Made by a program: the position numbers and the translations under genes. From NCBI RefSeq assembly GCF_027595985.1, contig NC_073304.1, positions 213,744,500-213,808,499 on the forward strand: a DNA stretch of 64,000 nucleotides, written 5' to 3'. Source of the DNA: Sorex araneus. Lineage: Eukaryota; Chordata; Mammalia; Eulipotyphla; Soricidae. Positions 3 through 62,628 of this stretch are shown here, piece by piece (within the stretch, counting starts at the first letter, position 1; every line of letters starts with the position of its first letter). The notes below the pieces were generated by a model. That model was not told the DNA's origin, ran no database searches, and saw only the letters and a list, made by a program, of their open reading frames with translations.

Positions 3-16487
<16,485 letters not shown>

Positions 16488-48091: not shown

Positions 48092-48279
48092 GTTTTTTTT
48101 TTTTTTTTTTTTTTTGCTTTTTGGGTCACACCTGGCAATGCACAAGGGTCACTCCTGGCTCTGCACTCAGGAATCACCCCTGGCGGTGCTCAGGGGACCA
48201 TATGGGATGCTGGGATTAGAACCCGGGTCGGCCGCGTGCAAGGCAAACGCCCTACCCGCTGTGCTATCGCTCCAGCCCC
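48092..48279 (-). mobile_element. SOR-type SINE, minus
   Basis: Complete, head sequence close to consensus. Duplication ATGACTTCTGT at 48081-48091 and 48280-48290. Faces the previous SINE to form an inverted repeat. Confidence 0.96.
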
Positions 48280-48317
48280 ATGACTTCTGTTTTTTAAAGT
48301 CGATTTTTATTTATTTA

Positions 48318-48476
48318 TGTTTTGATTTGGGGGCTACACCTGGCAGTCCTCAGGGTTACTCCTAGATATGTACTCAGAGACCACTCCAGGCAGGGTTTTG
48401 AGTGACCGGAGATGGAACCCAGGTCGGACATGTGCAAAGCAAGTACCCTTCCTGAAGTCCTATTGCTCTGACCCCA
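48318..48476 (-). mobile_element. Old SOR-type SINE, minus
   Basis: GGGGGCTACACCTGGCAGTC to CCTATTGCTCTGACCCC. Confidence 0.8.
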
Positions 48477-48506
48477 AAAATGACCTTTTTGAAATCTGAA
48501 ATCTAA

Positions 48507-48672
48507 TTTCATTAATTTATTTATGTTGGTGTTTGAGTCATACCTGGCGATGCTCAGGGATTACTCCTGGCTCTGCACTCAGGGACTATTCCTGGCAGTG
48601 CTAGGGGACCACGTGGGATGTCAGAGATCAAACCTGGGTTGGCCTACGCACTGTACTATTACTTTGGCCCCT
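48507..48672 (-). mobile_element. SOR-type SINE, minus
   Basis: GAGTCATACCTGGCGATGCT to ACTATTACTTTGGCCCC. Perfect 16-bp duplication GAAATCTGAAATCTAA at 48491-48506 and 48673-48688. Confidence 0.92.
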
Positions 48673-49654: not shown

Positions 49655-49833
49655 GAAACCAGAGTGATAGCACAGCGGGTAGGGTGTTTGCCTTGCACAC
49701 GGCCAACCAGAGTTTGATCCCCGGCCTCCCATATGGTCCCCCAAGGAACGCCAGGAGTAATTTCTGAGTATAGAGCCAGGAGTAACCCCTAAACATCACC
49801 AGGTGTGACCCAAAAAGAAAAACAAAAAGAATA
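49655..49833 (+). mobile_element. SOR-type SINE, plus
   Basis: AACCAGAGTGATAGCACAGC; complete otherwise, A-rich tail. Confidence 0.92.
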
Positions 49834-49864
49834 TATATAAAGAGACAGAAAATTTTTGAAAGAA

Positions 49865-50040
49865 GGGGCCAGCGCAATAGCTCAGTGAGTAGGACGCTTG
49901 TCTTGCTCGTGGCTGATCAGCTTTGATCCCTGGTATCCCAGATGGTCCCCTAAGCCATGCCGGGAGTGATCCCTGAAAGCAGAGCTAGGACTAAACCCTG
50001 AGCACTGCCAGGTGTGGCCTCCAAAAACAAAAAAGAAAAA
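49865..50040 (+). mobile_element. SOR-type SINE, plus
   Basis: GGGGCCAGCGCAATAGCTCA, GATCAGCTTTGATCCC (B box mutated), end GTGTGGCCTCCAAAAAC. Confidence 0.88.
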
Positions 50041-50073
50041 TTGGAAAGAAATCAAAGCAACGTTTTCGAGGAA

Positions 50074-50212
50074 GGGGCAGGAGAGATAGTACAGTGGGTA
50101 AGGCTCTCCGTGTGTCCCCTGTGCACCACAGGAGTGATTCCTAAGTGCAGAGCCAGGGTAACCCCTGAGCATCGCCAGGTGTGGCCCCCAAACAAAATAA
50201 AACCAAACAGAC
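50074..50212 (+). mobile_element. SOR-type SINE, plus, internal deletion
   Basis: GGGGCAGGAGAGATAGTACA then TAAGGCTCTCCGTGTGTCCC: B-box region missing; end GTGTGGCCCCCAAAC. Confidence 0.85.
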
Positions 50213-50213
50213 A

Positions 50214-50397
50214 GGGGCTGGAGCGATAGCACAGCGGGTAGGGTGTTTGCCTTGCACACAGCAGACCTGGGTTCGATTCCCAGCATCCCATATGGTCCCC
50301 TGAGCACTGCCAGGGGTAATTCCTGAGTGCAGAGCCAGGAGTGACCCCTGAGCATTGCCGGGTGTGGCCCAAAAAGCAAAAAAAAAAAAAAAAAAAC
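50214..50397 (+). mobile_element. SOR-type SINE inserted at the tail of the previous one, plus
   Basis: Complete. The AAC-rich tail of the previous SINE supplied the target: MCCAAACAGACA repeats before (50201-50213) and after (about 50396-50407). Confidence 0.94.
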
Positions 50398-53982: not shown

Positions 53983-55720
53983 AGAAGAAGCAAAACTCTG
54001 GAGCTTGGAGTTAAGACACACAGACCCAGGAGGGAGCGAGTGCTGAATGTGGGGACACAGGCTGTGAACATTTCCTGCAGGTGTGTTATGCTCCAGGGAA
54101 CGTTTAGAAACCAAAAACAAAGGAATATCTCTTCCCTACCAGAACCCCTGAGCCCTGTCTCTCTCAGAGAAAGAAGCCCCACTTACTGCTCAGGGGCCCC
54201 CCTGCTGTCTCCCTCCTTGCCACTCACATTCAATCACTGCGAACTTTCTCTTCTCCCTCTCTCTCAGATGCGCACACGCAGCCACTTCCTAATGCAGGAA
54301 TGTGAGCTCCCCTCTGCCTCGACTTCCCCTCTATCTCCCTCCCTGACGCTGGCCTTACCCTTCTTCCTTCTGATTTGTCACCAGCAGCAGCCAGAAGGGC
54401 CCTTCCAGCAGGGGTTCCCTCAGTGCTAGGTCAAGTCTCTGCTCTCCACTGGGGCCTCTCCCCGGCCTCCACCTCGTACCCCCACCATCCATGGCCTCCT
54501 GGGCCTCTCCCTGGCCCTCAGGCCTCCGGTCAAGCATCTTTCTGCCTTCACAAGGGGGCTTGAGGCAGCACGAGGATAGGGCCTCGGCTGCACAGCTCAG
54601 GTTGCGGGCTTGCATAAAGACTCGGAGAAGGTAGAAACAGAACATGAGAGCCTGGACACCACTCAGAGGCCTTCTCCCAGTCCACCTTCTGATGATTTAC
54701 AAAGGAGAGAATGGACACCTATGGGCGGAGAAGGGTGCAAGTCAGAAAAGGTGATGAATGAAAGAGAGATGAACAGACTGAGCACATAGTGACCCTCAGG
54801 TACAGAGCCAGGAGTAGCCAAGAGTAACTTACAGTTACCACCCAGGTGTGGCCCTAATGCCCGCCCCCTCCCAGCTCCTCACCCACCCCCAACCCCTCGC
54901 CCCCAGTAACTATGTAGCACTAATACGCTCCTGAAATAACGATGTTTCTGAGGGCGATGATGGTGCAGGTCCTGCGAGGCTCCTCACTTTGGCCACTAGA
55001 TGGCGCCAGCTACCCAGGCAGCAGAAACAGACCTGCTGGCCAGCCTCCCGCCTGATTTCTCCCCACACCTGGCACTCCGTGAGCCCAGGTGCATGATGCA
55101 CAGGAAGCCGCTTCCTTCAACAGGTACCTTCTCTCTCTCGGTGCCAGGACAAGAGGGGGCGATGGGATCTGGGTATTGCCTGGCACTGCCCTTCTCCCTT
55201 ACGCCCAACTCACAGAGGCCCTGATGCAGGGGCCTGTGTCAGCCCTCCGCTCCGCCAGGGGCAGTACTGGGGCCTGGCTAGCACCTGCTCATCTTGTTGG
55301 CCCAGGCGAGGTAGAGTGGGCGGTGCTGGTCCCACGGCATCCTTTGGTGACCTGGCCACCAGAGCTGGCAGCTGCCCGCCCTGCAGCCAGTGGCTCTTGT
55401 CCTGCTGGCCTGGCAGGCCCCTGGGAAGGCACTCCTGGCAATAGCCTGAAGGGGGGCAGCTCGGCGCTGGTGCTGGCTCCGTGCGTGCCCTTCCCTAGCC
55501 CTGGGAGGCGTCTCAGGTGACCCAGCTTTTCTCCAGTACAGAGGGAATTGGCTATTCATTCAGGAAACATCCAGGGCCAGAGAGAGAGAGCAAGAGCATG
55601 GGTGGGGGGAGCACTTGCTGGATGGAACCCACCCCACCCCCTATCAAAGTGAGCATTGGGAGGTAGCAGTGGACAGACACGGCCTGGTGACTCGGAGCTG
55701 ACCATGTGTGCAGCGGGGAT
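53983..55720. other. Intergenic single-copy stretch
   Basis: No gene recognised. 54795-54860 ends like a degraded plus SINE (GTACAGAGCCAGGAGTAGCC). Contains the CTCF-like motif at 54993. Confidence 0.45.
54993..55006 (+). promoter_or_regulatory. CTCF-like motif, plus orientation
   Basis: CCACTAGATGGCGC inside GGCCACTAGATGGCGCCAGC closely fits the CTCF core (CCACNAGRKGGCRC). It sits in single-copy DNA about 3.9 kb upstream of the DLX3 start. Occupancy cannot be judged from sequence. Confidence 0.65.
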
Positions 55721-55736
55721 CCTAACTAGTCTTTTT

Positions 55737-55927
55737 GTTTGTTTGTTTTCTTTTTGGGTCACACCCAGCAATGCACAGGGGTCACTTCACTCCTGGCTCA
55801 TGCACTCAGGAATCACCCCTGGCGGTGCTCAGGGGACCATATGGGATGCTGGGAATCAAACCCGGGTCGGCCGCGTGCAAGGCAAACGCCCTACCCGCCC
55901 TACCCGCTGTGCTATTGCTCCAGCCCC
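55737..55927 (-). mobile_element. SOR-type SINE, minus (first of three)
   Basis: Complete, with small repeats (CACTTCACTCC; CCCGCCCTACCCGC). Duplication CCTAACTAGTCTTTT at 55721-55735 and 55928-55942. Confidence 0.96.
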
Positions 55928-55954
55928 CCTAACTAGTCTTTTAGGGTCAATTCT

Positions 55955-56142
55955 CTTCTTTTTTTTTTTTTTTTTTTTTGCTTTTTGGGTCACACCTGGC
56001 AATGCACAGGGGTTACTCCTGGCTGTGCACTCAGGAATCACCCCTGGCAGTGCTCAGAGGACCATATGGGATGCTGGGAATCAACTGGGGTTGACTGCAT
56101 GCAAGGCAAACGCTCTACACCTTGTGCTATTGCTCCAGCCCC
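55955..56142 (-). mobile_element. SOR-type SINE, minus (second of three)
   Basis: Complete with long T run. TAGGGTCAATTCT before (55942-55954) and after (56143-56155). Confidence 0.96.
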
Positions 56143-56155
56143 TAGGGTCAATTCT

Positions 56156-56349
56156 TTTTTTTTTTTTTTTTGGTTTTTTTTTTTTTTTTGGGTCACACCT
56201 GGCGATGCACAGGGGTTACTCCTGGCTCTGCACTCAGGAATTACTCCTGGCGGTGCTCAGGGGACCATATGGGATGCTGGGATTTGAACCTGGGTCGGCC
56301 GCGTGCAAGGCAAACGCCCTACCCGCTATGCTATCACTCCAGCCCCCCC
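56156..56349 (-). mobile_element. SOR-type SINE, minus (third of three)
   Basis: Complete, T run broken by GG. TAGGGTCAATTCT before (56143-56155) and after (56350-56362). Last SINE before DLX3. Confidence 0.96.
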
Positions 56350-56599
56350 TAGGGTCAATTCTTTAATAGCTCTCTTGAGCCTCTTGGTGCTGCCTTGCTG
56401 GCCTATTTCTAAAAACTCGGACTTTCAGAGTTAAATGAGCACAGAAACTATCCAAACGGATGGACCGGCCACGTTCAGGAGGTCAGATCCCCGTTCAGCG
56501 GTTACTCGAGTGAACTGCAGCTCTGGGGTGAGGAGGGAAAAGGAGAAAGCCAGGAGGAGACCCCAGGGGGAGGAGACTCCTCATTTTTCAGAGGATGAA

Positions 56600-57390
56600 G
56601 CCCAGAGAAAGGTCTTGGCAACGCGCTGACCTTTCTGGGTGCGGAACTGGGGGTTCCAAGACCGGCCCTGCCCGCCTCCCCCGCTCTCGTCCAGGGAGGG
56701 GGAGCCGGCCCGCCCAATGCCCTTCCTGTCCCAGCGCCCCGGGCTCTGGAGCCCTCTTGGCAACAGAACAGAGGGCACCCAGAGCGGGTGGCAACTCGCC
56801 CCGCCACGGGCTCGGAGCGGCGCGCGATAGGCGCTGGGGGGACGCGGAGATAGACAGACAGATAGCGCTCCCCTCGCCCGGCCCCCGCCCCCACCTTTCC
56901 CACGCCGCGGCCGCCCCCAGCGCTCAGGCCACGCGGGCACTGCCGCCCCACTCTGGCCAGCGGACTGTGACCCTCGGTCGCCATCAGCGGGATCTCTCCA
57001 AGTCCCTCGAGGTCCCGGAGCGGGCACCCCAGGGGTCTGAACTTGGAAGGGAACCCGGAGCCCCCAGTACACACGCTCTGCCGCGGGGACGGAGGAAGGG
57101 GAGCGCCGTCGGGCGGGCTGCGGAGACGCCGGAGGCTGCAGGTCCCGAGGGCGACCACGAGGTGGCGCGCGGGCACCGCGTGTCCTGGGACGCGTGGGCA
57201 GGCAGGGGAAGGGGCCGGACAGACGCGGCGGCGGCGCGGCCTGAAGGGTGGATGCGGCGGCTAACGACTGAGACGTGGAGGGGCGCCCCTCCCGGCAAGA
57301 ATGCACTGGAAAAACGGACTCCGCGGCCAGAGACACGCTCAGAGGAGCCGGAGAAGGACGCGGAGCTGGGGGGAAGGGGTCCCTAGGAAA
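56600..57390. promoter_or_regulatory. GC- and CpG-rich block upstream of DLX3
   Basis: About 0.8 kb of CpG-dense single-copy DNA ending about 1.5 kb before the DLX3 start and separated from the promoter island by ordinary sequence and the purine tract. It starts soon after the last SINE (56346) and includes a strong CTCF-like motif at 57155-57168. It may be a separate CpG island or enhancer. No convincing coding exon was found in it. Confidence 0.6.
57155..57168 (+). promoter_or_regulatory. CTCF-like motif, plus orientation
   Basis: CCACGAGGTGGCGC within GCGACCACGAGGTGGCGCGC matches the CTCF core at all the strongly constrained positions I know. It lies in the CpG-rich block 1.75 kb upstream of DLX3 and contains methylatable CpGs. 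Confidence 0.65.

Positions 57391-58394: not shown

Positions 58395-62628
<4,234 letters not shown>

Follow-up and report, generated by a model that had tools for sequence, protein, structure and literature searches.

Tandem insertions of Alu elements were reportedly described by El-Sawy and Deininger in 2005. Direct Alu pairs with spacers of no more than 24 bp are far more numerous than inverted pairs according to PMC3215922, whose authors propose that an Alu can insert inside the duplication of a copy already present. PMC3415434 reports that de novo Alu inserts favour the vicinity of other SINEs, that tandem Alu inserts are common, and that Alu targets fit the L1 endonuclease site. Precise parallel SINE insertions are put at 0.18-0.29% in toothed whales in PMC10531181. 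Sor is named as a shrew SINE in PMC11240701, and Table 1 of PMC8608897 is the source of the shrew SINE primers used below.

The DNA analysed here is a 64,000-nt stretch of the Sorex araneus genome (contig NC_073304.1, positions 213,744,500 to 213,808,499), hereafter the window. At 55721-56364, three minus-strand SINEs (S1, S2, and S3, in order of position) lie head to tail, as found by reading 55400-56700 and by repeat finding. We estimate a probability of about 0.83 that the locus was built by three separate L1-type target-primed insertions, S2 and then S3 at one nick, and S1 at a nearby nick. Feature coordinates are summarized in Table 1.

Table 1. Features of the three-SINE locus; positions refer to the window and sense refers to the SINE strand.
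Feature	Position	Strand	Description
S1	55736-55927	-	SINE body and A-rich tail; 9-nt internal duplication, two small insertions (1 nt, 5 nt)
S2	55957-56142	-	SINE with tail; GGGG head at 56139-56142; highest divergence among the three
S3	56158-56346	-	SINE with A-tail; near the young-subfamily consensus
S1 duplication, 3' copy (sense)	55721-55735	-	Reads AAAAGACTAGTTAGG in sense
S1 duplication, 5' copy (sense)	55928-55942	-	Nick CCCT/AAAAGA
S2 duplication, 3' copy (R)	55942-55956	-	15 nt, one substitution relative to the other two copies
S3 duplication, 3' copy (M)	56139-56157	-	19 nt; last 3-4 G (sense) are the S2 head
Stretch of M	56143-56157	-	Doubles as the 5' duplication of S2
S3 duplication, 5' copy (L)	56346-56364	-	Nick TATT/AAAGAA; with the S3 head gives a run of 7 G

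A profile built from S1-S3 and iterated gave 75 matches, which make up 17.7% of the window. The primer SorexSINE-164F has 11 exact matches in the window (15 at up to one mismatch), the reverse primer 235rmod has six (one and five for its two letters), and a published shrew SINE probe has one (three at up to one mismatch). ARAGORN recognizes a tRNA-Ala-like head at 56269-56341, in S3 only (one of the three copies). Because the published primers match and a tRNA-Ala head is present, assignment of the trio to the shrew Sor SINE is well supported, the comparison of sequence having been made through published primers.

The trio lies approximately 2.8 kb upstream of the ATG of a distal-less-type homeobox gene on the plus strand (59156-59500 and 60470-60680; Pfam DLL_N, E 3.4e-25), the homeodomain fragment of which scores 22.7 bits, just under the 22.9 cut-off; we take this gene to be DLX3. 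At the other end of the window, an integrin alpha exon (2822-3445, minus strand) matched 17 distinct PDB sequences, all of them integrin alpha (best E 7.3e-09), and had no Pfam match. It is presumably ITGA3, which would fit the mammalian ITGA3-DLX3 neighbourhood.

The S1 duplication is a perfect 15-nt repeat of CCTAACTAGTCTTTT, which is found twice in the window when up to two mismatches are allowed (0.09 expected; two reached in none of 100 shuffles). TAGGGTCAATTCT occurs at 55942-55954, 56143-56155, and 56350-56362 and nowhere else in the window, with three matches at up to one mismatch (0.09 expected; three reached in none of 100 shuffles). Its second and third copies are included in a perfect 19-nt repeat, CCCCTAGGGTCAATTCTTT (M and L in Table 1; found twice window-wide with two mismatches allowed), while the copy at 55942 is without the longer repeat and has TTCTCT in place of the TTCTTT of the other two. 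Base 55942 is common to the S1 and S2 duplications. In sense-strand order the locus reads GAGCTATT, AAAGAATTGACCCTAGGG, S3 and its tail, AAAGAATTGACCCTA, S2 and its tail, AGAGAATTGACCCTA-AAAGACTAGTTAGG, S1 and its tail, AAAAGACTAGTTAGG, and ATCCCC; the empty site is GCTATTAAAGAATTGACCCTAAAAGACTAGTTAGGATCC. The internal duplication in the S1 head is GCGGGTAGG, and the 5-nt insertion is also in S1. Reading, repeat finding, and shuffle controls thereby confirm the three complete minus-strand SINEs and the duplications that an earlier, sequence-only reading had described.

Target-site duplications score 10.4 for S1, 9.8 for S2, and 14.4 for S3, compared with a null maximum of 9.35 over 2056 mismatched pairings. 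The sequence-only reading had the same 13 bases duplicated twice, which does not hold: the S2 duplication spans 13-15 nt, and that of S3 spans 18-19 nt and reaches 3-4 G into the GGGG head of S2. The 19-nt form, GGGG included, was picked by the automatic duplication finder without a prior.

The S3 head, a run of seven G, is unique among 55 heads, of which two have six G and 27 have four, GGGG being the family head. If its duplication ended at CCCTA, S3 would carry seven head G outside the duplication, compared with at most four in the other 17 of the 18 SINEs with a duplication score of at least 7; one SINE below that cut-off (1625-1781, score 6.1) has five G outside its best duplication. The extra G of S3 do not come from the original target, because in the empty site CCCTA is followed by AAAG, not GGG. 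Replaying the insertions with duplications of 15, 15, and 18 nt, with S3 last and either order for S1 and S2, reproduces the observed 900 bp apart from a single mismatch, which lies in R, the 3' copy of the S2 duplication, while placing S3 before S2 leaves the product three bases too short; since the replayed elements were taken from the observed sequence, the junctions alone are tested. S2 was probably inserted before S3, because the S3 duplication includes head G of S2, an order that depends on three G within a G-run, a context in which slippage or misassembly may give a false picture. The idea that insertion order can be read from the locus thus stands for S2 and S3, through the seven-G head and the 19-nt duplication, and fails for S1, which its own duplication leaves unordered.

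Relative to a young consensus drawn from 11 other young copies, non-CpG differences number 10/138 in S2, 4/138 in S1, and 2/138 in S3 (S2 versus S3, one-sided P 0.019). With subfamily-variable positions excluded and the general consensus as reference, the counts are 7/132, 1/132, and 2/132, respectively (S2 versus S3, one-sided P of about 0.09, calculated by hand). Divergence would therefore also put S2 first, more weakly, and, on divergence only, S1 appears younger than S2; aligning the copies to rank their ages makes S2 the oldest by both counts and leaves S1 and S3 unrankable. The S2 tail keeps a pure run of approximately 21 A, a feature seen more often in young copies, and this counts against an S2-first order.

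Close same-strand neighbours are a general feature of the window. Within 60 bp there are 16 same-strand and no opposite-strand neighbours, with 3.1 of each expected, and 16 same-strand neighbours were reached in none of 2000 placements and none of 5000 strand shuffles, although one of the 16 pairs (31882/31925) represents one SINE recovered as two separate matches. Within 100 bp there are 23 same-strand and five opposite-strand neighbours, the latter not depleted (4.9 expected). Clustering of this kind has previously been described for Alu (PMC3215922). Head-to-tail SINE arrays are many (e.g. 4738-5502, 48103-48671, and 49660-50391). A minus-strand SINE at 48517-48671, with a perfect 17-nt duplication (TTAGATTTCAGATTTCA), lies 5' of a more diverged copy at 48311-48475 and forms a further younger-upstream pair, but with a different nick.

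The alternative that survives best, which we consider quite unlikely, reverses the order of the pair, in a picture near to that of the sequence-only reading: S3 would have come first, and S2 would then have entered the junction between the S3 A-tail and its duplication, recutting at CCCTA, with the three extra G untemplated or produced by slippage. Entry into an older tail does occur in the window: the pair 50074/50214 shows a scored duplication within the tail of the older copy, and only 3 nt separate the abutting pair 44655/44796. Among the ten datable close same-strand pairs (six of the 16 pairs are undatable), the 3' member has the lower divergence in seven. The 5' placement of S3 is accordingly the less common arrangement here, because the 5' member is the less diverged one in only three of the ten, S3/S2 among them. 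Such an order would nevertheless need three untemplated G as well as a repeat cut at the identical base, and would turn S2, the more diverged copy, into the younger one.

Independent insertion of S2 and S3 on two different chromosomes, each into the one empty site, followed by crossing-over within the duplication or by gene conversion of a SINE body, is a far less probable history; it can appeal to the precise parallel insertions known from toothed whales (frequency as above; PMC10531181), yet it requires an additional recombination within 13-15 bp and leaves the three extra G unexplained.

Comparison of the SINE bodies bears on whether S2 and S3 arrived separately at all. The refuting test named in the sequence-only reading, private mutations common to two SINE bodies, was run, and S2 and S3 proved to have no rare state in common (six in S2 and two in S3), a result that is weak alone since the same was seen in the majority of unrelated pairs (795 of 1035). 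Each body is independent, with its own duplication and distinct duplication ends. Among the 1035 pairs ranked by closeness, S1-S3 is 17th, S1-S2 is 42nd, and S2-S3 is 104th, so that S2 and S3 are each nearer to S1 than to one another, and at the family-variable positions 102, 105, and 143, S2 differs from S3 and agrees with S1. Because absence of shared states is so commonplace, the case for separate insertions rests on all of these comparisons jointly. Tandem segmental duplication of one SINE and its flank with later divergence, although the alternation of target copies and SINEs (T-S-T-S-T) is what unequal exchange between 13-15-nt duplications would give and the pair ranks 104th closest of 1035, is the least credible history of all, disfavoured by the unshared rare states, by bodies that differ at 21/159 sites while the duplications are near-identical, by the closer kinship of each with S1, by the unlike subfamily states, and by the very unequal divergence (10 versus 2). 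These sequence comparisons favour reuse of one site over tandem duplication, and the proposal that one site was used twice very probably stands, with S2 and S3 sharing a nick.

The L1 endonuclease site is TT/AAAA. Both nicks of the trio resemble it and A-rich tails are also present, which suggests an L1-type enzyme. On a site matrix derived from the window, 1.1% of positions score higher than TATT/AAAGAA (S2 and S3) and 5.2% higher than CCCT/AAAAGA (S1), both sites belonging to the training set. The S1 nick falls one base short of where the S2 duplication ends, and a nearby second A-run may account for this. For 55 insertions in the window, 0.012 same-nick pairs are expected under uniform placement and 1.4 under the site matrix, the latter probably too high, given that 17 sites from the same window, that of S3 included, served to train the matrix. 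Since the matrix was trained on its own sites, no strong conclusion is drawn from the nick coincidence.

Under the preferred reading, in which S2 preceded S3 at a shared nick, members of one tRNA-type shrew SINE family would have entered approximately 30 bp of unique sequence by three target-primed insertions. S2, the first of the S2/S3 pair, would have inserted at sense TATT/AAAGAATTGACCCTA and duplicated 13-15 nt. Target-primed insertion keeps the upstream flank and the full duplication intact on the 5' side of the copy it adds; because the target is duplicated in this way, the nick site TATT/AAAG would survive intact at the S2 5' end. S3 would later have cut the same TATT/AAAG nick, with a second-strand cut displaced by 3-4 nt into the GGGG head of S2, giving an 18-19-nt duplication that holds those G and, as a result, an S3 that starts with seven G. 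S1 would have entered at CCCT/AAAAG with its own 15-nt duplication. The surviving original site may thus be the cause of reuse.

This differs from the proposal of entry by the new copy at the T-rich junction of its predecessor, for S3 adjoins the head (5') end of S2, opposite the S2 A-tail. The T-run/A-tail junction was rejected as the S3 target, the nick being the original genomic TATT/AAAG beside unique flank, and nothing at the locus shows the suggested target preference for a junction made by the previous copy. A wider possibility, which we hold to be unlikely, is that each insertion leaves a complete, cuttable site at its own 5' end, such that a strong site could act as a renewable hotspot that stacks SINEs upstream, with second cuts into the older head leaving countable G-runs that record their order across shrew genomes.

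In its tRNA-type head, A-rich tail, and primer sequences the trio is like the Sor SINE of the Soricidae, with no difference found in a comparison made by primers only. With tandem Alu insertions and with the direct Alu pairs of PMC3215922, it shares close head-to-tail SINEs on the same strand; it differs in belonging to a shrew family and in that its second duplication enters the older head, which would fix the order. Like the precise parallel insertions of PMC10531181, the trio would involve two independent insertions at a single endonuclease site; those occurred in separate lineages, whereas here both are on one chromosome and successive. The practical gain is a way of ordering stacked SINEs from a single genome, in which a duplication holding the first bases of the older copy marks the second arrival, together with the reminder that SINE presence at one site in two species need not mean one event; otherwise this is routine genome history. 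Because tandem Alu inserts, close Alu pairs, and parallel insertions have been described, we count the locus as an ordinary new instance of known SINE clustering, with a clean internal marker of order.
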